Shown one piece after another: positions 32,199-48,419 of a stretch of DNA of 64,000 nt. The notes beneath the pieces were generated by a model. It searched no databases, was not told the DNA's origin, and saw only the letters and a program-made list of their open reading frames with translations. A program made the translations under genes and the position numbers. The stretch comes from an uncultured Gemmiger sp. GTDB taxonomy: Bacteria; Bacillota; Clostridia; Oscillospirales; Ruminococcaceae. The stretch's first letter is position 1. Every line of letters starts with the position of its first letter. Location of the stretch: the NCBI GenBank assembly GCA_944388165.1, contig CALXHS010000023.1, forward strand, positions 38,500 through 102,499, given 5' to 3'.

Positions 32199-32233
32199 TC
32201 GTTTTTCTGACCAACTGTCATCTTTCCCTCGGG

Positions 32234-32278
32234 GACGGCCGGCCCGGAATCTTCCGGCCGGCCGTCTCTTCCTTTTTG
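32234..32278 (+). terminator. Terminator after the PTS operon
   Basis: A 15-bp GC-rich stem with one bulge (GACGGCCGGCC paired with GGCCGGCCGTC) is followed by TCTTCCTTTTT. It probably lets some reading through to the two following genes, which have no clear promoter. Confidence 0.8.
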
Positions 32279-32303
32279 TCAACTGCCCAAGGAGGTCTTT
32301 GCT

Positions 32304-32588
32304 ATGCTTACACCCAAACAGGCTTTGAACGAAGCGCAGCGCCAGAAACAAGCGCTGCGGACCATCATCGGCTGGCGGCGCGTGCTGTTTGTGCTGTCTG
32401 CCTGTTTTGTGGCACTGGCCGCCTGGGGCTTTACCGCCGGGATGATGCCCGCCGGCATTGTCGGGACGGTGCTGAGTTGCCTTGGTATGGTGCTGACCCT
32501 GTTGGTTCACCTGAGCATCGTCCGCGGTGAAAAGAACGTTGAGGCGATCCTGGCCACCCTGGCGCCGGACGCCAAAGCGGAGGGATAA
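32304..32588 (+). CDS. Small two-helix membrane protein, unknown
   Basis: This 94-residue protein has two hydrophobic helices (VLFVLSACFVALAAWGFTAGM and GIVGTVLSCLGMVLTLLVHLSI) and basic ends, with both termini probably inside. I recognise no family. It starts after AAGGAGG with good spacing and is 5 bp before the HAD gene, so it is expressed. It lies between the PTS and the sugar-phosphatase, and a role in that transport unit is only inferred. Confidence 0.8.
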   Translation: MLTPKQALNEAQRQKQALRTIIGWRRVLFVLSACFVALAAWGFTAGMMPAGIVGTVLSCLGMVLTLLVHLSIVRGEKNVEAILATLAPDAKAEG

Positions 32589-32593
32589 ACAAG

Positions 32594-33415
32594 ATGGCAA
32601 GTTATTCCATTGTGTTTCTGGATGTGGACGGCACCTTGCTGGACAACCGCCAACGGGTCAGCACCGCAGCCTGTGAACTGCTGGCCCGGCTGAACAGCCG
32701 GGGGGTGCCGGTGGTGCTGGCCAGCGCCCGGCCCCCCAAAGGGCTGGAACCCATCTATGCCCAGCTGGGGTTCCGCGGGCCGGCCATCTGCTATGCGGGG
32801 GCTTTGGCCGTGCTGCCCGACCAGCATATCCTGTATGACCATGGCATTCCCGCCGCAACGGCGGCCCGGTTTGAGCAGGCCGTGCTGGAAGGTTGGCCGC
32901 GTCTGACCGTCAGTGCCTATCTGTACGATACCTGGCTGACCCCGGACCCCGGCGCCCCCGCCATCCGGCGCGAAAGCGCCATCACCGGCTGCGAAGCACT
33001 GACCAGTGCCCTGGGCAGCGCTGCACAGCGGCTGGGCGATGTACACAAGCTGCTGCTCATCGGTCCCGAGCAGGACATCACCGACCTGCAGCACCGCCTG
33101 GCCCCGCAGTTCCCCGAACTGACGGTGCTGCGCTCCAACCCGACCTATCTGGAGGTGGTGGCCCGGGGCGTATGCAAGGAACGGACGGTCGCCGCCCTGC
33201 TGGATCATTTTGGCCTGACGGCTTCCCAGGCGGTAGCCTGCGGTGACGGTGAAGTTGATGCCGGGATGCTGCGTATGGCCGGGCTGGGGGTGGCCATGGG
33301 AAATGCCGCCCCCAAGGTGCGGGCAGCGGCGGATTTTGTGACGGCCACCAACGAGGCGGACGGTGTATTTGTGGCGCTGAACCGGTTGCGGTTCGCCCCG
33401 CCGCCTGTAAAATAG
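32594..33415 (+). CDS. HAD-superfamily Cof-type phosphatase
   Basis: This 273-residue enzyme has motif I FLDVDGTLLDN (nucleophile and acid/base Asp) and motif II VLASARPP, with Ser/Ala variations. The Cof-type C2 cap follows, then a late Lys in ARGVCKERTVAALLDHFG and motif IV ACGDGEVDAGMLRMAG. Cof phosphatases dephosphorylate sugar phosphates, FMN, or similar small molecules. Position after a PTS suggests control of intracellular sugar-phosphate, inferred only. The normal family KG-A segment is CKERTVAA here. It ends at a terminator. Confidence 0.9.
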   Translation: MASYSIVFLDVDGTLLDNRQRVSTAACELLARLNSRGVPVVLASARPPKGLEPIYAQLGFRGPAICYAGALAVLPDQHILYDHGIPAATAARFEQAVLEGWPRLTVSAYLYDTWLTPDPGAPAIRRESAITGCEALTSALGSAAQRLGDVHKLLLIGPEQDITDLQHRLAPQFPELTVLRSNPTYLEVVARGVCKERTVAALLDHFGLTASQAVACGDGEVDAGMLRMAGLGVAMGNAAPKVRAAADFVTATNEADGVFVALNRLRFAPPPVK

Positions 33416-33455: not shown

Positions 33456-33627
33456 TATTGCGTTGGCATTGCCCCCGGCGGTTGAACGCCGGAGACTTTA
33501 TGCTAAAGCTATCATAAAAAGCTGTATTCTTGTTTGAAATTACAGCTTTTGGGGAGACTGATAGGATCCGAACTTGCGCTTTTTCGGAGAAGAAAACTGT
33601 GAAAAGATAGTGAGATGTTGTGATAAA

Positions 33628-33664
33628 GCGCCGGAATTTGTGTGGTGTACACAAATTCCGGCGC
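33628..33664. repeat. Repeat hairpin, copy 1
   Basis: GCGCCGGAATTTGTGT pairs with ACACAAATTCCGGCGC around a short loop. A closely similar hairpin lies at 63717-63753. The shared flanks (TGATA before, CTG after) show that the two are related copies, not chance stems. No T-run of note follows either. Confidence 0.8.
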
Positions 33665-33689
33665 TGTTTGTTGTGTAAAAAATTGAATA

Positions 33690-34266: not shown

Positions 34267-34734
34267 TCAGTGCTCCTTTCCGGGCAAAGATGCTTCTGCC
34301 CCGGTTTCGGCGGTGCTGCATATATATCGTGCCCATGCCTGCGCCAGGGCTGTTCCCAGGCCGGGATTGGTGGTCAGCACACAGAACTGGGAGGGGGGCA
34401 GAGCAAAACGGAAATAATATTCCATGGCAGGGCACAGGTCGTCGGCATCCTCCGGCAAAAGCGCCTGGGGCCAGGATACAAACACCCCGTCCGGAGGAGC
34501 AAATCCCTCCATCTCCCAGCGCAGCAGCTGGCGGCAGAGCTCCCCCTTTCGCAGCTGGGACCGTGTGAGCCAGAGTATGTTGTCCGTTTGTTTTTCCACA
34601 TTGCGGTGGAACGCTGCAAAGCATTCCGCCGGCAGCAGGAATACCTTGACCTGATGGGGCGAAGTCTTGGGTGGAAGTTCCAGGCAGACCGGGGCCGGAG
34701 GTCTGGTCCCGGGAATAAACTGCTGTAAAAACAT
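34267..34734 (-). CDS. Unknown 155-aa protein
   Basis: I recognise no family. The start at 34734 has AAAGGAGG 6 bp upstream and the reading frame is free of in-frame stops. The sequence is soluble-looking with several aromatic residues: MFLQQFIPGTRPP, LWLTRSQLRKGELCRQLLRWEMEGF, PAMEYYFRFALPPSQFCVL and a short Cys-containing tail. No motif is obvious. It follows the cysteine-rich peptide gene by 56 bp in the same direction and is the last leftward gene of the signalling island, so it may share a transcript with the kinase-NTPase gene. Confidence 0.7.
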   Translation of the reverse strand: MFLQQFIPGTRPPAPVCLELPPKTSPHQVKVFLLPAECFAAFHRNVEKQTDNILWLTRSQLRKGELCRQLLRWEMEGFAPPDGVFVSWPQALLPEDADDLCPAMEYYFRFALPPSQFCVLTTNPGLGTALAQAWARYICSTAETGAEASLPGKEH

Positions 34735-34790
34735 GGAAATCCTCCTTTCATAAACGGAAACGGGAAAAAAGGGGGCAGCCGGGGGCCGGC

Positions 34791-34934
34791 TCAGTATACG
34801 TTTTCGGTGCCTTCGGTGAAATAGCGGCAACCGTTGTCGGTGGGATAGCAGTAGCACTTGTAGCAGGAGCAGTACCCCTTGGAATACATTCCCTCATAGG
34901 TGAAATAGCTGCAGTTTCCACATACACACATCAT
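34791..34934 (-). CDS. Small cysteine-rich peptide, 47 aa
   Basis: The frame starts at ATG 34934 with AAAGGAGAG upstream. It has eight Cys in 47 residues: CVCGNC, then GYCSCYKCYCY and one more Cys. Most are spaced CxC or CxxC, a pattern for metal binding or disulphides. There is no signal peptide. I know no named family. It is too short to appear in routine gene calls. The good ribosome site and position between two same-strand genes support it as real. Confidence 0.75.
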   Translation of the reverse strand: MMCVCGNCSYFTYEGMYSKGYCSCYKCYCYPTDNGCRYFTEGTENVY

Positions 34935-35153
34935 AAAAATCTCTCCTTTGTTTTGTATGAGCCTGGTGGCCTTGCGGATGGTCCAGAAGTTCCAAACTCT
35001 GTCTTTACTATAAAAAGTTCGGTGAATCGGCCTGGGGAAAAAAGAGAGAATTTATAAGAAAAATACCGGATATTTATATTGTTTTAGTCGGAAAGGTTGA
35101 CTACAAACGTAAAAATTTCCGGGTTATGACGGCAACTTTATTGAGAATTATAT

Positions 35154-38100
35154 TTACAGGAAAATGGTCTCGGTATCCGGACATGGGTGCAGTAGGGTTT
35201 CCGGCTGCAAAAGGGAGTCCGGTTCTGCGGCGGGAACAAGGGTTTCGGCCTGTTCCAGAAGCAGGGGAGACAGCACACAGGGCACAAAAGCGTTGCCTGG
35301 GTGGGGAATGTACCGGGTATAGGAGGTGAGCAGGCGATTCAGCGGTACGGTGCAGCGCATCTCCTCCACTGTGCCGGAAAGCAGAAATCCATCCTTGTGC
35401 CCGGCGCAAACAGCAATGACCCGGTCTCCGTCCCGCACCATTGCCTCGATCTGGGAAGAGGCGATGACCATCTGCTCCACCTTGCTGTTGCGGATATCCC
35501 AGATAATGACAAGATAGGGCTTCAGATCGGAGCGTATGTAGAGTTTTCCGTTGGCGTATACCCGGTGGTTCAGGACCGCAACGGGGGATTGTTCGGCCTC
35601 CTCAAAGGCTTTCTTTTCTGCATAGGGGGTGTCCTGCGGCCAGCGCTCGGATGCCAGCAGCTGGAATTTGTTCATGTTATACCGGACCGAGTTCCGGACA
35701 TTGCCCTGGGTGTCACAGGCGATGATCCAGTATTCCTGCTCGTAGCCTGGAACGATCAGCTCCAGCCCCATGCCTACCTGAAACTCTATCAGGAAGCCAT
35801 CCGGCAAGGGGGCCGGTGTACCTGTCAGCAGCTGGGCGTAGTTGCCGGGACCCCGCGCATTGCGCAGGATTTCCCACAGGCGATACCGCTTCTCGGTCCA
35901 TAGGGGACCCCGACGGATGTCGTACAACAGAAAGCTGTTGTCCCGCTCCTCCAGGCGCATGTCTCCGCAGGACTGCAGAAGAGCGGGCAGGGAAGTATCG
36001 TAGGGGAGCACCTCCCACAGAGGGGAACCTTCTTCCGGAGAAAACCGCGGGGCCAGCTCCAACAGGGTACGCCCCAGCAACCGGTGCAGGCACAGCCTGT
36101 TGCGTTTGTCGGAGGTCAGCCACTCCCTTTCTGAAAGGAAGCAGCCTTGCAGTTCGTCCATCCGATCGATGGAAAATCGTGTCTGTTGGTCCGGCAGAGG
36201 GGCGCCGGTCCGCAGGTCAAAGTCCAGGCAGACGGCGAAAATGTCCGCACGCTTGGATGAATAAAAGACTTGGACCCGTCCGGTGTCGGGGCACAGGGCG
36301 GCGCGCATGACCCGGCAGCAGTCCTGCGGCAGGGCCAGGGATACCATCCGGTTGTGGGCGTCAAAGACCGCCACGCGAGTTTCGCCGGCCATCAGAAGAA
36401 AGTTGTCCCGCCAGTCCATCCAGCAGAGCCTGGGGGGAAGCGGCAGTACCGCCACCTGCTCCAGGCAGGAATCCCGGGGCAGGCGGGCAGGACCTTCCGG
36501 TCCCAGCAGCCGGGCTGCGGACAAGCAGAAAAAAGAAACGGGCAGGTTGCGCAGGTCACAGCCGGAAAGATCCCCGCCCCGCTCATAGGCCCAGGCCAGG
36601 GCGAGGGCGGGCCGCAGACCGGCGCGCCAGGGACCGGGGTCCTGGGAGTAGAATGTCACCAGCCGCTGCAAAAGGCTGTGCGGCAAAGAAAAGCGCTGCA
36701 AGAAAGCCCAAGCCTCATCGGGCAGAAGATCCTTCTGGGCGGGTTCGGGTATGGGGTGGCAGGGGGCCAGTTCCGCCAGGAAAAACAGGAGCGGCTGCGG
36801 GTCAGGTGGGGCATGCCGAAGGGTTTCGATCAGCTGGTCAAAGGAACCTTCGGCGGCGAAAAACAGTGCTGTTCCCAAGCACCGCAGGGTCGGTTCCATG
36901 GCATAGCCCGCACCCCGGGGAACTATCAGGTCCAGGGAACGGCAGAGTACTACAAAGGCTTCCCGCTGTTCTTTTTTTCGGGGCAAAAGGCCGGATTCGT
37001 CCGAGAGAGAAAAGTCGGTCCGCCCCTGGCGGTACAGCTGGAAACACAGGGGCAGAAAGTAGGACAGCAGCATCTGCTGGGCTTGGGCGGGAGAGATGCC
37101 GGACGGAGCAGAGCGGCAGCGGTCCCACAGGGCCAAGATCCGCAGCTGGGTAGCGGTGACGGTCTTCTGGCTTTCCCGGGTCAGCCCGCAAAACAGTTTG
37201 TGGGGCAGATATTCCAGGGCGGCGGAGCACAGGAGGAACCGGGCCAGTCGCTGATACCAGTCGCCCTTTTCAGGAGAAGGCAGGCTGTCGGGAAGCTCGC
37301 CTTCGTGGGGGACGGTATACAGCACCGGCAGCCCCAGGGCGGGGGCTGCCCGCCCTGCGGTCACCACTTGCATGCAGGCAAAGGAGCACAGTTCCCGTAT
37401 TTGGTGGGTCAGGCTGCTGTTTTCACCGCACAGGGCAGGGTCCAGGTGATCCAGAAACAGGCAGAACCGGTATGCGGTTTCATTGGCAAACAGGTGGCGC
37501 AAAGCGGCAGGGGCGTCCGGCACATCCTCCTGCAGATAGGTCAGATAGGTTTCTCCCACAAAGCGCAGCAGGGCGTCCGGATCGGTGGGGTCGAACCGGT
37601 CCAGAGGCAGATACAGAGGAATAGTCCGGGGACTCTCCAGCAGCTGGCCGAAGGCATGGCGCAGCAGGCAGGTCTTGCCCATCCCCACCGGCCCCTGGAT
37701 GCAAAAGGATTTCCCTTTGTGCAGGCAGGTGCCCAGAGCGGCAATCCCGTTTCGGTCCGGACGTACCCAGGTAAGGGTCTCCGGGTCCAGCATGCCGCTC
37801 TGAGAGGAAAGGTAAGGCAGAGCTTCCTTCTCGATGTAGTTGCGGGGCGCGACGGGGGAGTACCGGTCCCAGAGCTGGATCCACTGCTGGGCACACAGGC
37901 GCAGGGATTCCGGGTGCAGGCCGGTGCGCTGTACGATCTGCTGCAGGGTTTCCAGCTGACAAATAAAATTGTTGTCGCGGTCGGTGGGGAGGGTGATGTT
38001 GCAGTCAGCTAGCTGGCCGAGTACAAAGTCCGCTGTTGCCCGGCGCACACCGTAAGGTAATTCTGCCAGCTCCCGGTCCAGAGTCGCCCGCAAGGCTTCC

Positions 38101-38942
38101 TCGGTCATGCTGTCCGCTGTCTGCCCGGTCAGAGCCCAGAACAGGGACATGGTCAGGGCGTAGATGTCATCTGCCGGGTCCAGCGCCTGCAGCGCCCGGC
38201 GGCACACCTGTGCCCGGGCCTGGATCTCGTTGTCGGGCAGCCGGCAGTCCAGAGCTTCCTGCAGGGCAGCCATGGCCTGCCCCACCTTCTGGACGTTTCC
38301 TGTCCAGAAGCCTGGCGTGCCGCAGACATGGCTGTATTGTTCCAGCAACGTCCGGGGGCTCTGGTCGGGGCTCAGCGACTCCGGAGCAAAGGCTGAGCCA
38401 AAATCGATCAGCCGGATTCCGGCCATCCGCTGCACGGGATGCTGCCCAGCCAGCACCCAGATGTTGGTGGGCTTGATATCGCAGTGCAGGATGGTGGGGT
38501 GCGCCTGGTGGATGGCCTGCAGGGCGTAGGCGGCTTCTGAAATGATCTCCAGCACCCGCTCCAGGTAGGTGGGCAGGTCCTGAGTCTCTTCGGGAAAAGA
38601 ATCCGGCCAAGGCCGTACGCCGTTGCGCCAGCGGGCCCGGTATTCCGCCAAGGTCCAGCCAGTCACCGTATCCATCCGCAGAATGGTGCGGTCGGGCCCC
38701 TCTTCCACCCGGCAGTCAAACACAAAGTCGTTGTTGCTCACCGCACGGCCGGCATCGTCCCGCTGTACGGCCAGCAATCGCATGGTATCGGCTTCCCGGC
38801 CGGCCTCCCGGCGGGTGAAGTCCACATCATCGAAATCAGCAAAAAAAATCTTTTCAATGAACACGCGGTCATCCTGCAGCGTGGCCCGGACCAGTGTGTT
38901 GCCAAGACCGGACAGTTTGCGCGTGAACAGTTTATCGCTCAT
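35154..38942 (-). CDS. Protein kinase / STAND-like NTPase / propeller-like multidomain protein, 1262 aa
   Basis: Residues 1-300 are a Hanks-type kinase domain: catalytic loop HCDIKPTNIW (153-162), LIDFGSAF (178-185) and an APE-like CGTPGFW (208-213). The ATP Lys is probably K31 in FIEKIFF. The region 400-560 is a P-loop NTPase with Walker A GPVGMGKT (417-424) and a Walker B-like FCLFLDHLD, of STAND/AAA type. About 850-1260 has repeated strand patterns (FLLMAGETRVAVFDAHNRMV, LYIRSDLKPYLVIIWDIRN) resembling a beta-propeller sensor. That plan resembles STAND signalling or defence proteins. The start at 38942 has AAAGGAGCC upstream. It follows the 560-aa gene by 54 bp, so they are co-transcribed. 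Confidence 0.85.
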   Translation of the reverse strand: MSDKLFTRKLSGLGNTLVRATLQDDRVFIEKIFFADFDDVDFTRREAGREADTMRLLAVQRDDAGRAVSNNDFVFDCRVEEGPDRTILRMDTVTGWTLAEYRARWRNGVRPWPDSFPEETQDLPTYLERVLEIISEAAYALQAIHQAHPTILHCDIKPTNIWVLAGQHPVQRMAGIRLIDFGSAFAPESLSPDQSPRTLLEQYSHVCGTPGFWTGNVQKVGQAMAALQEALDCRLPDNEIQARAQVCRRALQALDPADDIYALTMSLFWALTGQTADSMTEEALRATLDRELAELPYGVRRATADFVLGQLADCNITLPTDRDNNFICQLETLQQIVQRTGLHPESLRLCAQQWIQLWDRYSPVAPRNYIEKEALPYLSSQSGMLDPETLTWVRPDRNGIAALGTCLHKGKSFCIQGPVGMGKTCLLRHAFGQLLESPRTIPLYLPLDRFDPTDPDALLRFVGETYLTYLQEDVPDAPAALRHLFANETAYRFCLFLDHLDPALCGENSSLTHQIRELCSFACMQVVTAGRAAPALGLPVLYTVPHEGELPDSLPSPEKGDWYQRLARFLLCSAALEYLPHKLFCGLTRESQKTVTATQLRILALWDRCRSAPSGISPAQAQQMLLSYFLPLCFQLYRQGRTDFSLSDESGLLPRKKEQREAFVVLCRSLDLIVPRGAGYAMEPTLRCLGTALFFAAEGSFDQLIETLRHAPPDPQPLLFFLAELAPCHPIPEPAQKDLLPDEAWAFLQRFSLPHSLLQRLVTFYSQDPGPWRAGLRPALALAWAYERGGDLSGCDLRNLPVSFFCLSAARLLGPEGPARLPRDSCLEQVAVLPLPPRLCWMDWRDNFLLMAGETRVAVFDAHNRMVSLALPQDCCRVMRAALCPDTGRVQVFYSSKRADIFAVCLDFDLRTGAPLPDQQTRFSIDRMDELQGCFLSEREWLTSDKRNRLCLHRLLGRTLLELAPRFSPEEGSPLWEVLPYDTSLPALLQSCGDMRLEERDNSFLLYDIRRGPLWTEKRYRLWEILRNARGPGNYAQLLTGTPAPLPDGFLIEFQVGMGLELIVPGYEQEYWIIACDTQGNVRNSVRYNMNKFQLLASERWPQDTPYAEKKAFEEAEQSPVAVLNHRVYANGKLYIRSDLKPYLVIIWDIRNSKVEQMVIASSQIEAMVRDGDRVIAVCAGHKDGFLLSGTVEEMRCTVPLNRLLTSYTRYIPHPGNAFVPCVLSPLLLEQAETLVPAAEPDSLLQPETLLHPCPDTETIFL

Positions 38943-38996
38943 GCGTTATCGGCTCCTTTTTTCGCAAAAAGGGGGGGAGGGCGTAACCCCGGCAGA

Positions 38997-40679
38997 TCAG
39001 TCGTGGAGCCCTGCCAACGGAGCATGAGATCCGGCCTTGAGCCGGGCAAACACCGCGTCGATGGCGGCCAGATGGCCTGAATATTCGCTGGCGTCCTGGC
39101 CCAGCGCTTCCCGACCGGCCTGGGGGTCCCGGACGGTCTGTTCGCAGACCTGCAGCGCCTTTAGGAACAGCGTCTTGCGCTGAGTGGCGGGCAGATCAGC
39201 CGCCAGGGCCGCCTTCAGGGATGCATCGAAAGAAAGAAAGTCTTCCAGCGGGCTCAGACCGCAGCGGTTCAGAATATCGGTATATTCCTCCCCGGCACCG
39301 TTCAGCCGCAAGGCAAGCTGTTCCCGCTGGGGCAGCTGGCGGGCGCACAGGTCCTCCGCCAACAGCAAAAACAGCAGGAACATGTTGCGGTCCAGGTCGG
39401 CTTCGCCGCACAGTACCCGGACCAGATAGCTGCCGCTATGGGCAAACAGATCGCTCATGGCTTTCTGGTGGGACGGGCTGTCCTTCTCCCTGCTGCTGTT
39501 CTGGCCATCCTCGCCTGGGTCCAGCATGCCCAGCAGCAGCCGGGTCACCCCGCTCAGGTACAGGGGACGCTGCGCCCAGTGCTCTTTGGCCAGGGTCAGG
39601 CGCTGTTCCGGGTTGGTCGTCTGCGGGGCATCCTGACCATAAAAATAGAAGAAGGGCAGCAGCGCATCGGACAGCAGCTGCCAGCGCTTTTTCTCCATCA
39701 GCTCTTTCCGCAGCTCTTTCTCCGCTTCGATGGTACGTCCCTGGGAAAAGAGCGCCACCAGAACCGCAGGATATTCAAACCATTCTTCGCAGCCATCTGC
39801 CCCGATGCACAGTTCCTTTTCGTACAGAATGTCCCGCAGCCGGAACATCCCCTCCTGCTTGGGGTAGCGGGCGGGGGACAGCTGTACCGTCACCTGGGCC
39901 AGAGCGGTGTAAAAGGGGTCCAGGGCCCGGACCAGAGCCCGGACCAGGTAGTTGGTGGCTGTCAGACGATTCTGCACAAAGGTGGCGGCGGACTTGTCCA
40001 GAAAAATCTTCCAGTATTGGAACAGACAGTCCCTGACTGCCTGTTCCCCATGCAGAGCGGGCAGTTTCTGGCGGACCGCCTGGACGGCCTTGGTCATATT
40101 GCCGGTCACGCCGGCGGTGACTACATAGGTGGAGCCATCCTGCCGGAATGCTTCTGTCATATAGTCGGTCAAAGCCTGGTAGGTACAACGGCCCTGTTGA
40201 ATGGCCAGGCCCAGACGGAACTGGGCCTCCTTCTGCTGCCGGGCGGCCTGGTCGTCGGCAGAGGAGGTGTCCAGATGTTCCTGCACTGCCAGGTCGGCCA
40301 TCTCCTGCAGTTCCCTGACCCACTTCTGGCGTAGCTCTTCCAGTTCCTTCTGGGGCATGATCAGGGCGTTGTCCAGGTCCTTGTTCAGGCTGAGCAGGTA
40401 GACCACGGCGGCTTCCTTGCCGTTGCGGGTGTACAGCCGGGGCTGCCGGGCGGCGGTCAGCAGTCTCTGCACCCTGTCCAGAGACTGGCCCTGACGCACG
40501 CCGTTCCGTATGATGCGCAGGCGGCCCTCCCGGGGCGCGTCTGCGGCGGCACCGGCGTTGATTTCTGGGTCGGACAGGATACGGGCAAACTGTGCGGGCG
40601 TCAGTTCCACAGGGTCAGTGAACGCTTCCCATCCTCCGGCACGGTTGGCAAGCACCCCCAAAAAGCGCGTGAAATTCAT
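38997..40679 (-). CDS. Unknown 560-aa helical protein of the signalling island
   Basis: I do not recognise a family. The protein is helical, charged and soluble, with no membrane segments, and long helices such as LEELRQKWVRELQEMADLAVQEHL and QAARQQKEAQFRLGLAIQQGRC. A small hydrophobic SGSYLVRVL and a middle LVRALVRALDPFYTALAQV are visible. The start (40679) follows AAGGAGCG and a good promoter. It is the first gene of the leftward unit and is directly followed by the kinase-NTPase gene. An adaptor or effector role for that protein is inferred. Confidence 0.75.
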   Translation of the reverse strand: MNFTRFLGVLANRAGGWEAFTDPVELTPAQFARILSDPEINAGAAADAPREGRLRIIRNGVRQGQSLDRVQRLLTAARQPRLYTRNGKEAAVVYLLSLNKDLDNALIMPQKELEELRQKWVRELQEMADLAVQEHLDTSSADDQAARQQKEAQFRLGLAIQQGRCTYQALTDYMTEAFRQDGSTYVVTAGVTGNMTKAVQAVRQKLPALHGEQAVRDCLFQYWKIFLDKSAATFVQNRLTATNYLVRALVRALDPFYTALAQVTVQLSPARYPKQEGMFRLRDILYEKELCIGADGCEEWFEYPAVLVALFSQGRTIEAEKELRKELMEKKRWQLLSDALLPFFYFYGQDAPQTTNPEQRLTLAKEHWAQRPLYLSGVTRLLLGMLDPGEDGQNSSREKDSPSHQKAMSDLFAHSGSYLVRVLCGEADLDRNMFLLFLLLAEDLCARQLPQREQLALRLNGAGEEYTDILNRCGLSPLEDFLSFDASLKAALAADLPATQRKTLFLKALQVCEQTVRDPQAGREALGQDASEYSGHLAAIDAVFARLKAGSHAPLAGLHD

Positions 40680-40708
40680 GATCCAATCGCTCCTTCTAAA
40701 TTATTTTT

Positions 40709-40737
40709 ATTATACATTTTGTTGTGGGGTCGTGCAA
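40709..40737 (-). promoter_or_regulatory. Promoter of the leftward signalling unit
   Basis: On the minus strand TTGCAC and TATAAT are separated by exactly 17 bp, about 30 bp before the 560-aa gene start. The rightward Lon-like gene begins 81 bp away, so both units share this control region. Confidence 0.85.
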
Positions 40738-40818
40738 CAGAGCAAAAAATAGCCGGGCCGGGAAGCTGGATTTTTTATAGTGAAAGTGAAACATGCAAAC
40801 AAGAAAGGAGAATTCTAG

Positions 40819-41757
40819 ATGGCTGCGAAAGACACGCAAGAAATACTGTCCGTCATCTCTCATGAATGTCTCGATAAGACCGGTATGGGCAGGAAATCCT
40901 TTGTTTTGGAAATCCCGGATGGTCAGGTAAGGCGGGTCACCCCACCGCTCTATATCTCGGGAATCCTGCTGGATGAAATCAGCTGTGAAATTTACAAGCC
41001 GGGTGCAGAGCGGGACACACCGGTGAAGTTCAGTTACTATACACCGTCCGACCTCTATCTGCCGCCCCACTCGCTGATCCAGCTCATGGGGCTGCGGTGG
41101 ATGGGCACCTGCCTGGTGGCAGATACCGTCCTGCACTTCACCCCCCGGGACGATTACACCCGGATGGGAAGCTACGGGGAAAGGAACAGCATCTGGACCT
41201 GGCTGGCGCCGGACCCTGCTATCCTGTGCAAGAGGTCGGAAAAAGGGTGGCCCTGCATCGGAGTGTACTGCAGTTCCGGACGGGAAGAGCTCCCCCGCAA
41301 GACGCAGACGCTGCCCACAAAACCGCTGCCGCCCACCGCACCTCCCCCCGTTACCCGCACAGAGTCGGCGCAACTGCCCCGCCATGGGGCAGATAACGAC
41401 AATCCTCCGGCGGACCCGGTGCTCCGGCGCTTCACCGGGTTCCTGCAGGCCCATGCCTGCCGGGAGGACCGGGAAGAACCAGATCCGGGGGCGCTTCCGG
41501 CCGGGACCGGCAAGGATACTCTCAGGACACTGTACGAGGAGAACCGGTCTCTTTACAGTCCCGAGGTACAGAGGGAACTGGAGCACATATTGAAAAGTGC
41601 CTTTATGCTGGGAGAAAAGCCCCTGCGCCGTGCCCGCGATCTGCTGCGCTATATGCCTACCGTCGCGCAAGGACTTTTACCCCCATTCCGGAAGAGCCGC
41701 TGCGCGCCGCGCTGGAGCGGGCCCTTCCCGGGCAGGACACCATCATCGGCTGTGTGA
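40819..41757 (+). CDS. N-terminal part of Lon-like protein (before frameshift)
   Basis: The first 300 or so residues belong to the same protein as the next frame. It starts MAAKDTQEILSVISHECLDKTG with AAAGGAGAA upstream. The in-frame ending after RDLLRYMPTVAQGLLPP is off-frame nonsense (FRKSRCAPRW). In the other frame at 41685 the sequence reads IPEEPLRAALERALPGQDTIIG and runs into the next gene. A missing C in the 5-C run at 41680-41684 would cause this. The N-terminal region has no known domain and a low-complexity proline-rich spacer (KPLPPTAPPPVTR). It probably serves as a target- or partner-binding arm. Confidence 0.7.
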   Translation: MAAKDTQEILSVISHECLDKTGMGRKSFVLEIPDGQVRRVTPPLYISGILLDEISCEIYKPGAERDTPVKFSYYTPSDLYLPPHSLIQLMGLRWMGTCLVADTVLHFTPRDDYTRMGSYGERNSIWTWLAPDPAILCKRSEKGWPCIGVYCSSGREELPRKTQTLPTKPLPPTAPPPVTRTESAQLPRHGADNDNPPADPVLRRFTGFLQAHACREDREEPDPGALPAGTGKDTLRTLYEENRSLYSPEVQRELEHILKSAFMLGEKPLRRARDLLRYMPTVAQGLLPPFRKSRCAPRWSGPFPGRTPSSAV

Positions 41758-43889
41758 TGTCCGCTGTCCATGTGTCCAACATGACCTGTAAACCCCTGAC
41801 CCTGCTGTTGCTGGACGCGGAAGAGATCACCGCCCGGGAAATTATCCACTGCCTGTACAGCACGATGCCGGGAGCGGCCTATCTTGACGGCAGCCTGGGG
41901 GCGCTGAACCTGGTGGGCGTAGAGAGCTGCTATGAAGGAGCCGTCATCGGTCAGACCATCCGCAAGCTGGACGGGCCGCTTCTGTGCATCGAAAAGCTGG
42001 ATGCAGTGTACTGGCGGGCGCAGGATAACAAAGATTCCGCCGCGCCCTGCTTCAATGCGCTGTTCAGCGGTCGCACTTTCTGTGATCGTTTCCTGAGGGT
42101 GACGGTACGGTATTACGGCCATATTGTGGCTCAGGCCGCCGACCTGGAGCTGAAATACCGCTCACAGTTTGCCCGGGTCGTGGAGATCCCCGCGGATACC
42201 TACGAAGAAAAGATCTGCCGCCTGCAGGAAAAGGCCCGGGGCACCCCGCCCGCCTTTGTTCTGGACAAAGAGGTGGCGGAGAAAATCCTGAAAGAGTACG
42301 CTCCGGGGTCCATGAGCCGTGCGTTGCAATTTCTGGAACTTCTCCGCCTGTTTGCGGCAGATCTGGGGCGCCCTGTATGCTCCGGCGATCTGCCCGCCGC
42401 GTTGGGCGTACCTGCTCTGACCCGGGATGAACAGCTGATAGCTGATCTGGAAGGCTGCGCCGGGAATCTGCCCCAAGAAACGGCGCGGGAAGCTACTCAC
42501 CAGGCGCGGGTGCTGCTGAGTGTTTATACCCATGAGGGGGAGAAGGAAATGGCCCGCAGGATTCTTCGCACACTGGTGGACTACCAGAACGCCAGCCGCA
42601 GCATGGCCACGCCACATGGACCGCAGCTGCGCCGCGGCCTGGACGCCGAACTCCTGGGGCTGGAGGAGGAAAAAGAACTGGTGGTCCAGACACTGTGCGC
42701 ACATCGTCGCCGCATTCTCTTCTTTGTGGGGGCACCGGGCACCGGAAAAACCGCCCTGGCCCGCACTCTGGCCAAGGCCTCCGGACGTGCGCTGGTGCGC
42801 ATCGACATGGCGGCCCTGCACCCCGAGCAGCTCACCGGCCTGGCCCCCATTATGGGGCAAGGTGGGCAGGAAAGTGTTCTGGTGCGTCGTATTGCCCGGG
42901 CGGGGCGGCCGGCGGTGATTCTGCTGGATGAGATCGACAAGGCACAGCCCAAGGTGATGGAGTGCCTGCTGGAACTCTTTGAAAATCAGCGGATTTTTTC
43001 GGACGGATTGATCGGCCGGGTGGATATGAGCAATCACCTGATCGTACTGAGCGGCAATTCCCTGAAGGTCAGCCGCCCGCTGCTGGACCGCTGTCGGATC
43101 ATCACTATGCGTCCTTATACCCCGGAAGAAAAAGAAGCAATCCTGCGGCGGAAGTGGCAGGAGGCGCTGGAGGCGGAAGGCCAGGCCTTCCGCCCGTTGA
43201 GTGAGGAGCTGGTGCACTGTGCAGTGCGCCGCTGCGACACTGGCGGTGTCCGGGATGTTGAGAACATGGCTGAGTTCCTGGTCCGGCAGGTCTGTGCAGG
43301 AAAGCCCCTGCCCTGCACCGGGCAAGAGTTGGGTCGCCTGCTGGGCAGCTTCCTGCCCGATCTGCCTGTGATCCGGGAGCCTGGGAATGTGTACTGCCTG
43401 GCCGCACTGGAAAACGGTGGCGGGATGGTCAACCCGCTTCTGATCCGGGAAAACCCTGCACCGGGTGCGCCCTGCCTGCAGATATTGGGCATGCAGGGAA
43501 AAAGTATACAGGAAAGTGCACGGATGGCTCTGATGTGGGGCTCCTGCTGGTTGCGGCAGGCTTTGCCGCCGCTGATCATGGCCATGGATGCTTCGGAAAA
43601 GGACGGACCCAGTGGTGGGCTGGCCATGGCGTTGGCCTGTTACAGCCTGCAGACCGGCCGCATCCTGGAAGGAGTAGCAGCCACCGGGGAGCTGATGCTG
43701 GACGGTACGGTGCTGGCAGTGGGGGGGCGTACCTTCCAAATTGATCGGCGCAGTGCGCCGCACGCCTACGGTGCACACCATCTTTTTGCCTGCGGCCAAC
43801 CGGACGGACATTCCGCCCCGGCTGCTGAGGGAGACGGAGAAAGCAGGACTCCGGCTGCATTTTTTGGATACGGTTCAGCAGGCCATTGA
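41754..43889 (+). CDS. Lon-like AAA+ protease (main part, C-terminus frameshifted)
   Basis: The frame holds a first AAA-like domain with no P-loop Lys (LTLLLLDAEEITAREI, LLCIEKLDAV). A second is a standard Lon-type AAA+ module with Walker A GAPGTGKT (325-332), Walker B VILLDEID (387-394) and Lon sensor regions. The S16 protease domain has the catalytic Ser in KDGPSGG (S619) and ATGELMLDGTVLAVGG. The catalytic Lys is lost because a 7-G run at 43721-43727 shifts frame; removing one G gives VGGVPSKLIGAV, restoring the Lys, and then HTIFLPAANRTDIPP to a stop at 43950. The ATG here is not the true start; see the previous entry. No Lon N-terminal (LAN) domain is present, so it is a Lon-related regulator of the island, not housekeeping Lon. 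Confidence 0.83.
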   Translation: MMSAVHVSNMTCKPLTLLLLDAEEITAREIIHCLYSTMPGAAYLDGSLGALNLVGVESCYEGAVIGQTIRKLDGPLLCIEKLDAVYWRAQDNKDSAAPCFNALFSGRTFCDRFLRVTVRYYGHIVAQAADLELKYRSQFARVVEIPADTYEEKICRLQEKARGTPPAFVLDKEVAEKILKEYAPGSMSRALQFLELLRLFAADLGRPVCSGDLPAALGVPALTRDEQLIADLEGCAGNLPQETAREATHQARVLLSVYTHEGEKEMARRILRTLVDYQNASRSMATPHGPQLRRGLDAELLGLEEEKELVVQTLCAHRRRILFFVGAPGTGKTALARTLAKASGRALVRIDMAALHPEQLTGLAPIMGQGGQESVLVRRIARAGRPAVILLDEIDKAQPKVMECLLELFENQRIFSDGLIGRVDMSNHLIVLSGNSLKVSRPLLDRCRIITMRPYTPEEKEAILRRKWQEALEAEGQAFRPLSEELVHCAVRRCDTGGVRDVENMAEFLVRQVCAGKPLPCTGQELGRLLGSFLPDLPVIREPGNVYCLAALENGGGMVNPLLIRENPAPGAPCLQILGMQGKSIQESARMALMWGSCWLRQALPPLIMAMDASEKDGPSGGLAMALACYSLQTGRILEGVAATGELMLDGTVLAVGGRTFQIDRRSAPHAYGAHHLFACGQPDGHSAPAAEGDGESRTPAAFFGYGSAGH

Positions 43890-43950
43890 GTTTCTGGAAA
43901 AGAACGGGAACCCGAATGACTGCAAAAGAAATAACGCTTCCTTTTCTTAA
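43890..43950 (+). CDS. C-terminal tail of the Lon-like protein in shifted frame
   Basis: The shifted frame covers 43728-43950 (PSKLIGAVRRTPTVHTIFLP through LEKNG) and matches the end of Lon proteases. It is listed only for the part beyond the previous stop. It ends in TAA at 43948-43950. Confidence 0.7.
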
Positions 43951-43969
43951 ATTTGTTTCGCTTTTCTCC

Positions 43970-43998
43970 TTCGCCGAGAATGGGCTGAAAACTATAAT
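43970..43998 (+). promoter_or_regulatory. Possible promoter before the vWA gene
   Basis: TATAAT at 43993-43998 is 17 bp from a weak TTCGCC (43970-43975). GGAGG precedes the vWA start. Confidence 0.55.
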
Positions 43999-44110
43999 GA
44001 AGCCAGAAAGTTGAAAAGAGCTTTCAGGAAAGACCAAAACGAAAGGAGGTGAGGTCGTCGGTCTTGAAATTACAAAATCCGTTTTCTGACAAAAAGCAAG
44101 GAGGATTCTT

Positions 44111-44875
44111 ATGACTGACAAATTGAATGTTTATGATAATGGTTCTGCATGGAAAAGTATTCCGCCCGAAAATCTGAGTGAGCGCCATATCCTGATCCAG
44201 ATTCTCATTGATACTTCCGGGTCCATGTTCACCAAGCAGGCAGCGCTCAACAAGGCGGTGCGTGAATTGCTGGACGGTCTCCAGAATGACCCGACCACCC
44301 GTGGAGCTGCGGAGGTATGCATCATCGGGTTCGGCGGGAGCGAACCGAAGGTTCTTCTTCATTTCAGCCCACTGCGCCTGGCCCAGGCACCGGTGATTAC
44401 CTGTTCCGGCGGAACTCCCATGTATGCCGCCGTAGAGATGGGCCTGGACCTGCTGGAAAAGCGCCGGGCGGAGCTCAAGCAGCGCAATCCGCCGGTGCCC
44501 ATGTACAAACCATTTATCTTTATCCTGACGGATGGCGCCGCCAATGACCGCGTTACGGACTCCTTCAAGCGTCTGCGTGAGCTGCAGAAGCCTTCCCGAC
44601 CCGGCGCCAAATATGGCAAAATCTTTGTGTACCCCATCGGCCTGGGGGATGAATTCAAAAAGAAGGAAAATCAGCTCACGGTCGCATCGCTTTCCCACAA
44701 CCGCGAATTCTACACCGGAGATTACAGCAGCCTGTCCAACTTTTTCTGCTTTGTATCTACCACCACGACCTCCGCTTTGCGAACGGTGGAAGGCACCGCC
44801 GTTGAGTTGCCTGACCCTGAGGAATTCGGCTTCAAGCGCCAGCAGATTTCCTTTAACGAACTGATTGACGACTGA
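44111..44875 (+). CDS. vWA-domain protein (TerY/YegL-like)
   Basis: This 254-residue cytoplasmic vWA protein has a complete metal-ion-dependent adhesion site: DTSGS (34-38), Thr 102 in SGGTPMYA and Asp 141 in FILTDGAAND. Such proteins bind partner proteins through Mg2+ and are the vWA member of TerY-P triads with PP2C phosphatase and kinase. The start follows AAGGAGG. A terminator-like hairpin lies between it and the PP2C gene, so its level may differ from that of its partners. E. coli YegL is the closest named analogue by organisation; detailed identity was not measured. Confidence 0.9.
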   Translation: MTDKLNVYDNGSAWKSIPPENLSERHILIQILIDTSGSMFTKQAALNKAVRELLDGLQNDPTTRGAAEVCIIGFGGSEPKVLLHFSPLRLAQAPVITCSGGTPMYAAVEMGLDLLEKRRAELKQRNPPVPMYKPFIFILTDGAANDRVTDSFKRLRELQKPSRPGAKYGKIFVYPIGLGDEFKKKENQLTVASLSHNREFYTGDYSSLSNFFCFVSTTTTSALRTVEGTAVELPDPEEFGFKRQQISFNELIDD

Positions 44876-44882
44876 ATCTATA

Positions 44883-44911
44883 GGGAGGGGGCTTGACCCT
44901 CCCGCTTTTTT
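44883..44911 (+). terminator. Terminator or attenuator inside the triad
   Basis: GGGAGGG pairs with CCCTCCC and is followed by six T, 8 bp after the vWA stop. It would partly uncouple the vWA gene from the phosphatase and kinase. Confidence 0.75.
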
Positions 44912-44954
44912 GCATTTTCCGAAAGCGATTATTCCACAAAAAAGGAGGCCGCAT

Positions 44955-45848
44955 ATGTATGGGTTCAACATCAGCCTGACCGGATCAAAGCACGTCCTTC
45001 AAAAAATCCCCTGTCAGGATTACAGCAAAATCACCTGCCTGAAGTCTGACGGACAAAAGGTACTGGCTGGGGTGGTGTGCGATGGGGGCGGAAGCGCTCT
45101 CTACAGTAAACAGGGGGCAAAAGTTGCGGGTATCACCTATCTCAGACTCATCCGTCAGGGTCTGCTGAAAGAGAGCTTCTCACTGCAAGATGAAACGGCA
45201 TTGGGCCGGTTGCTGCAAACGGCCATGAAGGGTGCGCTTGCTGCCGTCAACGCCATGGCCGACGGCGAGGGGCACCCTCGCAGGGAATATGAGACTTGCC
45301 TTACCGGCACCGTTTTGACACAGAAGGGGGTGCTGGCTTGGTCCCAGGCCGGTGACAGCGGTCTGGTAATGCTGAGCCGGGATGGAAGTTTCCGGAAACC
45401 CACCCCCCGCTGCAGCGGCGAGGAAGCCGGCTCGGTTTTTCCTCTTTCATGCTGGCCCAAATGGCATTTTGGCATTTCCGGCGATGCTGTGGGCGCTGTT
45501 TTGTTTAGTGACGGTATCCTGGACTATGCGGTGAGCAATGACGCACTGGGCAGTCTTATCTACTGGCCCTTTCTCTCCCCGGCATTTTGCCGGGTGAACA
45601 ACAAAAGGGAACTGGCAGCCCTGAAACAGCGGTGGTTTGATCTCCTGACCGGCAAAATTCCCGACTTTCCCCTGCCAGAGCTCGTACCGGACGATCTGAC
45701 GGTGGTGGCTCTGGGGGCGGACAGCGAGCCCATGGGGCAGGCGCTGGAGAAGGTTCGCTGGGATGAAGGAGAGTTCCGTGCCCAATTACGGTCAGCCCGC
45801 AGGCGTGTCTGGCCGGACCTTTACCCGGAAGAAATGAGCGAGCCCTGA
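44955..45848 (+). CDS. PP2C-type serine/threonine phosphatase (YegK/PphC-like)
   Basis: This 297-residue PP2C_2-type phosphatase has metal ligands Asp 22 in PCQDYS and Asp 43 in GVVCDGGGS. Its AWSQAGDSGLVML, LFSDGILDYA and PDDLTVVAL segments complete the active site. The usual DGxG is GG here, typical of the short YegK/PphC subgroup. It would remove phosphates placed by the next gene's kinase. The start is the ATG at 44955 after AAAAGGAGG. It is 53 bp before the kinase start. Confidence 0.9.
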   Translation: MYGFNISLTGSKHVLQKIPCQDYSKITCLKSDGQKVLAGVVCDGGGSALYSKQGAKVAGITYLRLIRQGLLKESFSLQDETALGRLLQTAMKGALAAVNAMADGEGHPRREYETCLTGTVLTQKGVLAWSQAGDSGLVMLSRDGSFRKPTPRCSGEEAGSVFPLSCWPKWHFGISGDAVGAVLFSDGILDYAVSNDALGSLIYWPFLSPAFCRVNNKRELAALKQRWFDLLTGKIPDFPLPELVPDDLTVVALGADSEPMGQALEKVRWDEGEFRAQLRSARRRVWPDLYPEEMSEP

Positions 45849-45901
45849 CGGGGTAGAAAGAAACCGGTCCCCCGGCTGTGATCGGCGAAAAGGAGACAAA
45901 G

Positions 45902-47377
45902 ATGGAATATTACGGACTCCACAACAAACGGTATAAACTGGGGCAAAAGATCGCCAGCGGCGGGGAGGGAACGGTTTTTCAGATTCGCGGTACTGATAAG
46001 GTCGCCAAAATTTATTCCCCCCAAAAGCTGAACACAACTCCCGAGATGGAAAGCAAGCTCAGGTGCATGCTCCGTCTGGATGCCAAAATAGGCGGAGTGC
46101 TGGCGTTTGCTTTTCCCCAAGATCTGTTGTATGACAAAGAAGGGCGGTTTGTAGGCTTCACCATGCCGAAAATCACAGCCTACTCAATCATCTGCGCCGT
46201 GCGTCCCACAGAGCGCATCATTCTTCAGCCAAAGTGGGATACCCGGTTTTCCGTTGCTGTGGCGTTGAATCTTGCGGAACGTTTCCTTTATCTCGAAAAG
46301 ATGAATATTGTCGTGGGCGACGCCAACCTCGGCAACCTTCTCGTTGACGAAAAAGGGTTCGTTTACTTTGTCGACACAGATTCATGGACGATTACCGCAC
46401 CGGACGGGCACCGTTATGCCACAACGCAGGCGGGGGTCGCCCGCTATCTTCCTCCGGAGTGTATGACGGGAAAGATAGATTATACAACTCACACGGACAG
46501 GTATGAGTTAGCCCTTTGGATATTTTTTATTTTATACAATGGATGTCATCCGTTTTTAGGAGAGAATATTGAAAAAAATATAGCGGACAAACACTCTCCG
46601 TACTTTACGGCAAACGAGGCGATCCCGGCAGAAAGTCCTGATATAGAGTGGCCCGGAAAGGTTATCGTATCCTTGTTCCGAACGGCGTTTCTAGGCACTC
46701 CCCAGGAGCGCCCGTCGGCCGGGATGTGGGTGTCCGAACTGAAAAAATTGTTGAAGAAGCTCTGCACAGGATCTGCTGTGTGCCCACGGAATCCTCGGCA
46801 TTACTACATCCGCCAGTATACATACAGCTGCCCCTGGTGCGCCGTAGAACGCCGCCAGTCATCCTGCCGGATGCCGGGGCTTGCATCCACCGCTGTAAAG
46901 GGCAGAGGTACCAACGGCCATGCTGCGGCCGCCGGTCAGATCCGCCTGAAGCCGCAGTCTCAGCGGTCCGGAGTCGCTCACACGGTCGTGTGTTACGGAG
47001 CAGGGCTGGGGCTAGCGGCCACCCCCATGGTCTGTAATGGTTACCGATTATTGGCAGCAGAAATGGGGGCGGATCTGCCGGCCTGGTTCGCCCTGACAGT
47101 GCTGATTCTGTGCGGTATTGGTTCCGCCGGCTTGGTTCGTCAATGGCTGGAGAAAAGTTATAAAACAACGGGGCAACCCTGGTTTGTTCTGGCGGAGGCT
47201 GCCGCGCTGGTGACCGTTCTTCTGGCTGCCCTGGGGATCGGAACCATGCTGGTGCTGGCCTTCCTTTGTTTTTTGTGGCGGAGTTTTCTGATGTTTCTGG
47301 TCAGCCAGGCCGGCACGACCCTGCTGCTGATTGTGATAGGAGGAATCTTCCTTTATTATCTGATTTTCAACAACTGA
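45902..47377 (+). CDS. Membrane protein kinase (YegI-like)
   Basis: This 491-residue kinase has the Gly loop IASGGEGTVFQI (17-28) and ATP Lys 36 in KVAKIY. Its catalytic loop is MNIVVGDANLGNLLV and the metal loop FVDTDSW replaces DFG. These are YegI-type variants with HRD changed to VGD. A short Cys cluster (CPRNPRH to SCPWCAV) follows the kinase domain, then about four hydrophobic helices up to LLLIVIGGIFLYYLIFNN. It is therefore inserted in the membrane by its C-terminus, unlike E. coli YegI with its helix-hairpin-helix tail. It ends the rightward unit. Confidence 0.88.
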   Translation: MEYYGLHNKRYKLGQKIASGGEGTVFQIRGTDKVAKIYSPQKLNTTPEMESKLRCMLRLDAKIGGVLAFAFPQDLLYDKEGRFVGFTMPKITAYSIICAVRPTERIILQPKWDTRFSVAVALNLAERFLYLEKMNIVVGDANLGNLLVDEKGFVYFVDTDSWTITAPDGHRYATTQAGVARYLPPECMTGKIDYTTHTDRYELALWIFFILYNGCHPFLGENIEKNIADKHSPYFTANEAIPAESPDIEWPGKVIVSLFRTAFLGTPQERPSAGMWVSELKKLLKKLCTGSAVCPRNPRHYYIRQYTYSCPWCAVERRQSSCRMPGLASTAVKGRGTNGHAAAAGQIRLKPQSQRSGVAHTVVCYGAGLGLAATPMVCNGYRLLAAEMGADLPAWFALTVLILCGIGSAGLVRQWLEKSYKTTGQPWFVLAEAAALVTVLLAALGIGTMLVLAFLCFLWRSFLMFLVSQAGTTLLLIVIGGIFLYYLIFNN

Positions 47378-47468: not shown

Positions 47469-48152
47469 TCATGGCAGCAGCGGGGCGGCATAAGGCCCAC
47501 CCAGTTCCATCAGGCCGCGGGCCACCAGCCCGGCAAAACGGACTGCGCCTTCATAGCGCAGATGGGTATCATCGGCAAGGCCGTCCGGATAGGCGGGGTA
47601 CAGCCCAGGGGCTAGGTGCATATACAGGGAAAGGCTGTTTTCGGGTCCCATTGCCCCGACCAAAGTTGCGCTTTCCCGGGTCAGGTCGATGAGGGGCAGA
47701 TGTTCCCGTTCTGCCAGACGGCGGGCTGCATCCGGCCAGGGACCATGGGTGGGCAGCAACCGACCATCTTGGAAGCGGCGTCGGACCAGCGGGGTGATGA
47801 GCACCGGCATGGCACCCCGGTCCAGGGCGGTGCGGGCATAGGCCAGAAGGTTGGCGGCGTAGGTTTCGGGGGAGGTGAACCGGCTGGGATCTTCCTTCTT
47901 TTCGTCGTTGTGGCCAAACTGGATCAGCAGTAGATCCCCAGGACGCAGTCCTGCTTCCACCGGGGCAAAGAGTCCTTCCTCCCGGAAACTTTTGGTGCTG
48001 CGGCCGTTGCGGGCATGGTTGTGCACCGGGATGCCGGGGCGCAGATACAACTCCAGGACCTGCCCCATTCCGCACTGGGGCCAGGTGTCGATCCGGTTGT
48101 GCTGTACGGTGGAATCCCCGATCCACCAGATGGCTTGCGGCTGGTTTTGCAT
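47469..48152 (-). CDS. SGNH-hydrolase, rhamnogalacturonan acetylesterase type (CE12)
   Basis: This 227-residue enzyme has block I WWIGDST (nucleophile Ser 14), a Gly in NHARNGRSTKSF, the Asn block LIQFGHNDE and the final DDTHLRYEG with catalytic Asp and His. The order and the GDST/FGHND/H pattern match RhgT/YesT-type rhamnogalacturonan acetylesterases. It removes acetyl groups from pectin fragments. No signal peptide is present, so it acts on imported oligomers. It is divergent from the AraC-type regulator. ATG 48152 follows AAAGGAG. Confidence 0.88.
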   Translation of the reverse strand: MQNQPQAIWWIGDSTVQHNRIDTWPQCGMGQVLELYLRPGIPVHNHARNGRSTKSFREEGLFAPVEAGLRPGDLLLIQFGHNDEKKEDPSRFTSPETYAANLLAYARTALDRGAMPVLITPLVRRRFQDGRLLPTHGPWPDAARRLAEREHLPLIDLTRESATLVGAMGPENSLSLYMHLAPGLYPAYPDGLADDTHLRYEGAVRFAGLVARGLMELGGPYAAPLLP

Positions 48153-48419
48153 GGGAGGAACTCCTTTCGGCAGAGGCTGCCTTGACTGTGAACGGTTTTA
48201 TTATACCCTGATGCAAAGGGGGCGGGCAAGTGTCCGCTGACCGGAACGCAAAAAGGTTCCTTGTTGAAAAAGAACGTAAAAACGAAAAATGTGAAGAAGT
48301 GTTCCCTGCCGGGTGAAGAAATGTTCCCTGGGAACTGCCGTGAAACGGTGGCGGGGAAATAGGCTTTATGTTATACTGAAATGCACAGTTTTGGGCAATC
48401 AGCAGAAAAGGAGAGGATC

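Follow-up and report, generated by a model that had tools for sequence, protein, structure and literature searches.

A divergent kinase-NACHT and Lon-like gene pair next to a TerY-P-type triad in an uncultured Gemmiger genome

Bacterial NLR-related NACHT proteins (bNACHT) combine an N-terminal effector, a central NACHT domain and a C-terminal sensor, and defend against phage, according to the accessible part of PMC12169576. The TerY-P triad is defined in the available sections of PMC11090510, where it is hypothesised to be a metal-sensing phospho-switch; there, TerY-P-like modules are also cited as anti-phage and TerY-P is treated as separable from Ter/restriction partners. In the portion of PMC7159879 at hand, a zinc-ribbon or transmembrane kinase, a PP2C and a vWA protein recur together beside GAP1-N2 GTPase systems. 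We analysed a 64,000-nucleotide stretch (the window) from an uncultured Gemmiger sp. (GCA_944388165.1, contig CALXHS010000023.1, positions 38,500 to 102,499), which is part of a 102.5-kb contig in a source genome of 2.38 Mb and 138 contigs. It contains an island (34267 to 47377) where the gene of a predicted Ser/Thr kinase-NACHT protein and the gene of a Lon-family AAA+ protease are encoded on opposite strands, followed by a vWA-PP2C-kinase triad, and the same kinase-NACHT and Lon-like pair is present in a second species. We propose, with a little less than even confidence, that a rare NLR-like sensor kinase commands a dedicated Lon protease as a divergent pair, to which a TerY-P switch has been added here.

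The kinase-NACHT and Lon-like pair in two species

Among 15 other genomes of the genus searched with the 1262-aa kinase-NACHT protein, a single one, G015, was positive. A 15.1-kb contig of this genome (L060, taken whole) encodes a 1,452-aa kinase-NTPase (7240-11598, plus strand) and a 1,075-aa Lon-family protein (3694-6921, minus strand), as divergent neighbours about 320 bp apart. An earlier note on the Gemmiger DNA had linked a kinase-NTPase to a Lon-like protease, with the caveat that the two might belong to unrelated, independently spread families; their recurrence as divergent neighbours in G015 bears out the linkage in two species. The G015 pair is flanked on one side by a 316-aa open reading frame (ORF) without Pfam match and a DUF3737 gene, and on the other side by what looks by eye like a LacI-type regulator. 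Since the neighbours differ between the two copies, the pair is conserved in two species at different positions, which fits an accessory, movable element.

Judged from its sequence, the 1262-aa protein is a Ser/Thr kinase (about residues 1-300) followed by a NACHT-type STAND NTPase, with a P-loop at 417-424 and a Walker B-like stretch at 495-501, and by a variable C-terminal region. The Pkinase profile scored 29.0 bits against a cut-off of 31.7 with the whole protein, whereas the N-terminal 349 residues alone passed at 31.9. In the 1,452-aa homologue of G015, both Pkinase (34.3) and NACHT (27.8 against 26.7) passed, in agreement with the STAND-like ATPase suggested earlier. The two homologues are 39% identical over residues 6-732 (E 9e-122), and both keep the Lys-containing strand, the HCDIKPxN and DFG motifs, the P-loop GxxGxGKT and the Asp-containing Walker B-like stretch. 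Beyond residue 869 they are still homologous and less alike (score 82; the best of 150 shuffles reached 59), as the sequence of a sensor might show. With respect to the bNACHT layout, the N-terminal kinase is clear and the C-terminal region has no family match. A single-sequence fold model of the NTPase together with this region was unusable (mean predicted local distance difference test score, pLDDT, 37.3) and neither confirms nor excludes the propeller-like fold attributed to it in the earlier note.

The Lon-like partner had been described as two ORFs of 312 and 711 aa. These are pieces of one Lon-family gene, since residues 28-1046 of the single intact 1,075-aa ORF of G015 match the window in order across different frames (residues 28-300 at 40945-41652, 300-993 at 41652-43727 and 992-1046 at 43723-43887). 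The frame is first lost between about 41652 and a C5 run at 41680, and a second time at a G7 run, 43721, directly before the lysine that we take to be catalytic. The 711-aa ORF matches positions 104-150 of the Lon_C profile, and the last window piece alone matches positions 149-200 at 16.1 bits, below the cut-off of 21.1. In the G015 protein, AAA (62.9 bits) and Lon_C (61.3 bits) are both above the Pfam cut-off. The KDGPSGG stretch of the window aligns with KSGPSAG in G015 and with the residues around the active site in a Lon protease of solved structure. As regards the Ser-Lys dyad, the lysine region (VEEKL) of G015 comes in frame after the serine; in the window, the AAA domain and the Ser stretch share one frame and the Lys region is in another. 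No Pfam family was found in the N-terminal 300 residues or in the middle region, and a Lon N-terminal substrate domain was thus not recognised there. The Lon equivalog model scored the window piece at 105.6, far below its cut-off of 608. By eye the middle region resembles a degenerate first AAA domain, a reading that was rejected because its similarity to the real AAA domain stays at chance level (score 35; shuffles average 32 and reach 47). The assignment to the Lon family before the trio stands, for a gene that is longer than the 711-aa ORF and broken in frame.

The element looks rare. Counts refer to the samples searched, and G015 must lie outside the order and phylum samples used for the kinase-NACHT, Lon-like and 560-aa profile (393 genomes) searches, as it would otherwise have given a match. 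The kinase-NACHT protein found only itself in 394 genomes of the order (E<=1e-10), and its part after the kinase only itself in 229 genomes of the phylum (E<=1e-4). The same was true of the Lon-like protein in 295 genomes of the order, a set without the other genomes of the genus, at the strict threshold of E<=1e-40, and of the triad kinase in 229 phylum genomes at the likewise strict E<=1e-25. For the vWA, 560-aa, Lon-like and kinase-NACHT proteins, the viral contigs yielded no relatives. Neither the 560-aa nor the kinase-NACHT protein had a match in plasmids and phages (plasmids only for the kinase-NACHT protein of the window, both for its G015 homologue). The Lon-like query matched 1,500 plasmid records, none covering 80% of the query; the 15 matches listed cover 48-61% of it, nine being annotated as Lon and six having no annotation there. 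We found no description of the Lon/kinase-NACHT pair in the accessible parts of the open-licence literature, including PMC7159879, PMC11090510, PMC4978471 and PMC12169576.

Organisation of the island, the triad and the smaller genes

The minus strand of the island encodes the kinase-NACHT protein, a 560-aa protein and two small ORFs, and the plus strand the Lon-family gene and the triad:

34267..34734, minus strand: 155-aa protein (tblastn, shuffle test, Shine-Dalgarno)
34791..34934, minus strand: 47-aa cysteine-rich ORF (Shine-Dalgarno; linked by position only)
35154..38942, minus strand: kinase-NACHT protein, 1262 aa (Pfam, motif alignment, G015 homologue)
38997..40679, minus strand: 560-aa protein (motif at residues 53-103 common to small helix-turn-helix-like proteins)
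40680..40818, no strand: divergent spacer of 139 bp (position between the left and right units)
40819..43950, plus strand: Lon-family AAA+ protease gene, one gene, out of frame twice (Pfam, collinear G015 match)
44111..44875, plus strand: TerY/YegL-like vWA protein with a complete metal ion-dependent adhesion site, MIDAS (Pfam, homology, motifs)
44955..45848, plus strand: PP2C phosphatase, PphC/YegK-like, 297 aa (Pfam, homology, Shine-Dalgarno)
45902..47377, plus strand: YegI-like Ser/Thr kinase, 491 aa (Pfam, homology, Shine-Dalgarno)

A Shine-Dalgarno-like stretch precedes each proposed start (34734, 34934, 38942, 40679, 40819, 44111, 44955 and 45902); the GTG start of the 711-aa ORF and the GTG at 45878 have none. 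Of the genes listed in the earlier note, the 1262-aa, 560-aa, vWA, PP2C and kinase ORFs are present, the 312-aa and 711-aa ORFs are not separate genes, and the 196-aa GTG-initiated ORF at 34267 is replaced by a 155-aa frame with its start, and a Shine-Dalgarno, at 34734. That note had missed the broken Lon gene, the fusion that links the 155-aa protein to the receptor and the kinase-associated motif of the 560-aa protein. Its shared promoter region does measure 139 bp, but no consensus promoter lies in 40680-40818 among the sites listed by a promoter scan, and the 'shared promoter' status of this spacer is positional only.

The triad belongs to a known type of module, of which this is a divergent example. 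It has the gene order of E. coli yegL-pphC(yegK)-yegI and all three proteins are homologous to their counterparts, confirming that the trio is organised like YegL-YegK-YegI and TerY-P. The vWA ORF (44111-44875) passes the Pfam VWA cut-off (24.8 against 23.8), has a complete MIDAS (DTSGS at 34, the T of GGTP at 100, the D of LTDG at 139) and can be aligned both to YegL and to a vWA protein that we labelled TerY, whose gene is near terW on plasmid CP042628. The PP2C ORF (44865-45848) matches PP2C_2 at 69.8 bits against a cut-off of 24, and its start is probably at 44955; the kinase probably starts at 45902, as opposed to the ORF 45878-47377. In its 499-aa version, this kinase scored 28.5 with Pkinase, just below the cut-off of 31.7, and among five references compared it is closest to E. 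coli YegI (30% over 331 aa, E 2e-30). Its C-terminal part carries a zinc-ribbon-like CPRN...CPWC motif and a hydrophobic, membrane-type tail. At E<=1e-10, vWA matches were found in 6 of 299 phylum genomes, the window's own included, the best other being 33% identical. Four of the five other loci were inspected (stretches of 3.7-19.9 kb); in all four, kinase, vWA and PP2C genes were recognised by eye, and none of these four stretches matched the G015 Lon-like protein. No Ter, CoCoNuT or McrBC family was found among 20 window ORFs scanned with Pfam, so the earlier statement that Ter genes are not visible holds for these ORFs, and linked Ter or restriction genes were not seen.

The 560-aa protein has no Pfam, NCBIfam or PHROG family at E<=0.01. 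A relative (34% identity) was present in one of 60 other genomes searched, G015. When genome contigs were scanned with the 560-aa alignment, the only query run there, 107 stretches matched the pattern and one was a relative, the G015 record. When 393 other genomes were searched with a profile of the two 560-aa-type proteins, seven had a match, in each case weak and partial (E 4e-5 to 6e-4). From five of these seven genomes we built a model of short helix-turn-helix (HTH)-like proteins, which in return recovers the 560-aa protein with 29.9 bits, most strongly at residues 53-103, while none of 2,000 shuffles exceeded 12.4 bits; the Lon-like, 312-aa and 499-aa ORFs of the window score below zero. 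An ORF with a Ser/Thr kinase motif lies directly after the HTH-like gene, or one gene further on, in three of the five loci (L022, L023 and L024), and none was found near it in L020 and L021. The 560-aa protein may thus be an adaptor in kinase signalling. A fold model computed from the alignment of two sequences was helical and unreliable (mean pLDDT 35.9).

Several observations accompany this protein. L022 3454-5509, L023 941-2164 and L024 9796-12149 encode small HTH-like proteins of the same family, with kinase-motif ORFs adjoining or one gene off, and kinases of this order may generally be partnered by such proteins. L018 690-10881 and L019 5458-15709, from the two remaining genomes of the seven, are clusters of genes resembling, by eye, those for FHA, PP2C, trypsin-like and Ser/Thr kinase proteins. 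Both have a common 360-aa protein at the cluster end, and the L018 copy is found by the HTH-like model at 31.6 bits. In G015, contig C49 (L005 3464-12954) carries the 560-aa homologue beside transglutaminase-like, DUF2625, ThiF/E1-like, JAB and FtsK/SpoIIIE genes (Pfam), a cluster that resembles a ubiquitin-like conjugation or secretion-type system.

Two small genes lie beside the receptor. The kinase-NACHT protein of G015 has an extra C-terminal domain that aligns with the separate 155-aa protein of the window. The match by tblastn is 38.5% over 109 aa (E 2e-12), and the alignment scored 133 where the best of 300 shuffles reached 53; both comparisons were made with a reading one codon longer than 155 aa. 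This fusion in G015 places the 155-aa gene with the receptor. The 47-aa ORF (34791-34934) adjoins the receptor gene and has eight cysteines and a strong Shine-Dalgarno; it had no match in Pfam or in 15 other loci searched, and it is possibly a small metal-binding protein.

The island is bounded on the left by a sugar-phosphotransferase/HAD region (to 33,415) and on the right by a GDSL/AraC/ABC-transporter/GH28 region (from 47,469). The right flank (47680-53677) is 98.9% identical to genome G033 over 6,000 aligned columns, with 64 mismatches and two single-base indels. The left flank has only 29- and 35-bp matches in G033, and positions 28284-33398 are 83% identical to G009. As the two flanks differ in relatives, the island sits where two variable regions join. 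Just to its left, positions 33621-33675 form a short palindromic element with 17-bp perfect arms. Matches of about 49-55 bp to this element occur at several places in the related genomes G001, G007, G009 and G022, and it reads as a dispersed repeat of the repetitive extragenic palindromic type or as a terminator.

Proposed mechanism and alternatives

In bNACHT logic the effector stands at the N-terminus, which would make the kinase the effector here, and Lon is the natural candidate for the phosphorylated partner because it is encoded across the divergent region in both species. In the mechanism that we propose, the C-terminal region would detect a trigger and the NACHT domain would switch nucleotide state and oligomerise. 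The N-terminal kinase might then phosphorylate the unusual N-terminal region of Lon (or the 560-aa adaptor), and this phosphorylation could unleash Lon proteolysis, leading to a growth stop or to the removal of a target. In this genome, how far the partners are phosphorylated would be set or reset by the TerY-P/Yeg triad that follows the Lon gene, and the small C-terminal domain of the receptor would be provided by a separate gene. The data show the genes with their families and catalytic motifs, the pair conserved in two species and the gene fusion in G015, whereas the trigger, the substrate, the direction of control and a defence or stress outcome are what we infer. An anti-phage outcome is conceivable, and we lean somewhat against it. 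A bolder version, in which the island is a new immune machine whose NLR-like receptor activates its own Lon by phosphorylation through a kinase effector, with the TerY-P triad as an add-on reset, appears rather unlikely to us; if true, its chain from receptor to kinase to protease would roughly follow inflammasome/caspase logic.

Control of a dedicated AAA+ protease through phosphorylation by a NACHT-kinase would join, in a gut genus, signalling parts that are usually studied apart. The conserved divergent pair is a defined two-gene unit, intact in the relative and directly testable, and the TerY-P/Yeg triad, whose function is still hypothetical, would gain a candidate target.

Several results weigh against the proposed command of Lon by the kinase-NACHT protein. 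The pair is known in two genomes only. In the window, the NTPase reaches 16.8-16.9 bits with AAA_16, below every Pfam cut-off, and the Lon frame is broken as sequenced. In G015, the triad is not beside the pair and is absent from its 15.1-kb contig, and the 560-aa homologue is on another contig. Ten flanking ORFs of the window, scanned with Pfam and not with PADLOC, belong to sugar transport, catabolism and regulation and include no defence gene, and PADLOC matches of the island proteins are partial and domain-level only. One fixed system made up of both units, left and right, is accordingly not supported: when co-occurrence was checked in G015, the kinase-NTPase and Lon-like genes were neighbours and the triad and 560-aa gene were not with them.

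The same arrangement in G015 makes it quite possible, if short of an even chance, that the island consists of two unconnected accessory modules, with a Yeg-type triad inserted by chance downstream of a Lon/kinase-NACHT pair. A PP2C search of 41 genomes, G015 among them, found only the window's own protein at E<=1e-8, a threshold that divergent copies may escape (the vWA protein and triad kinase were not knowingly searched in G015), and the four other triads inspected in the phylum are on stretches without a match to the G015 Lon-like protein. However, a divergent PP2C may have been overlooked, the vWA gene begins 160 bp after the end of the Lon reading frame in the same direction, and the phospho-signalling parts of the triad would suit a kinase receptor.

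The island might also be a stress switch responding to metal, oxidant or protein damage, in which the kinase-NACHT protein and the triad tune a Lon that clears damaged proteins, without any role against phage. Lon is a proteostasis protease. The metal-sensing role hypothesised for TerY-P triads in the available sections of PMC11090510 would suit such a switch, as would the Cys-rich 47-aa ORF, the zinc-ribbon-like motif and the lack of defence genes among the ten flanking ORFs. We nevertheless consider it a doubtful explanation: one would not expect a housekeeping stress system to look rare and to occupy different positions in two species, no Ter family was found in the 20 window ORFs scanned, and the function-tested NACHT receptors in the accessible part of PMC12169576 are defensive.

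If both Lon frame losses were real, the window copy would be a decaying, non-functional remnant. The frame is indeed lost twice, the second time directly before the presumed catalytic lysine. But the second break coincides with a G7 run and the first has a C5 run nearby, and the other island genes are open over up to 1,262 codons. Moreover, the AraC-type regulator gene at 48381-50698, about 6 kb away, is split by a single-base homopolymer difference and is open, with 772 aa, in the 98.9% identical G033 contig. Because this unrelated gene shows the same kind of difference, sequencing error is the likelier cause of the Lon frame breaks, and decay of the copy appears improbable. As the window Lon copy is out of frame, the function proposed for it requires that the breaks are sequencing errors. 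Finally, an artefact of the fragmented assembly (138 contigs, with a right flank nearly identical to G033 and a left flank with only two short matches there) is hardly credible as the source of the juxtaposition, given that the divergent pair recurs in another species whose contig was assembled independently.

Comparison with known systems

The locus is made of known kinds of components, a bNACHT/STAND receptor, a Lon protease and a TerY-P switch, in a combination that we did not find described. PADLOC contains a BrxL model, and with respect to BREX no BrxL-named PADLOC match was obtained with the window Lon piece at E<=0.1 or with its G015 relative at E<=0.001. The NTP-dependent conflict systems of Kaur et al. 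2020 (MoxR-vWA ternary; GAP1-N2) are alike in their recurring zinc-ribbon or transmembrane kinase, PP2C and vWA proteins. In contrast to the MoxR-vWA-beta-propeller ternary system, no MoxR is found here (bpMoxR at 20.1 and 20.7 bits, below the cut-off of 27), and the word 'Lon' does not occur in the main text of PMC7159879.

The Lon-like protein resembles Lon proteases of family S16 in its AAA+ and Lon_C domains, the Ser and Lys regions sharing a frame in the G015 relative, and differs from them by N-terminal 300 residues without Pfam family and by an extra middle region. The triad resembles TerY-P and yegL-pphC(yegK)-yegI in its MIDAS vWA protein, PP2C, zinc-ribbon-like Ser/Thr kinase and gene order, but it has only about 22-33% identity to the members compared, a hydrophobic kinase tail and a Lon-family gene upstream. 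The kinase-NACHT protein resembles bNACHT in its central NACHT and perhaps in the tripartite layout, with the kinase as putative N-terminal effector and the C-terminal region as putative sensor, and it differs in having a Ser/Thr kinase at the N-terminus and a gene paired with that of a Lon protease.

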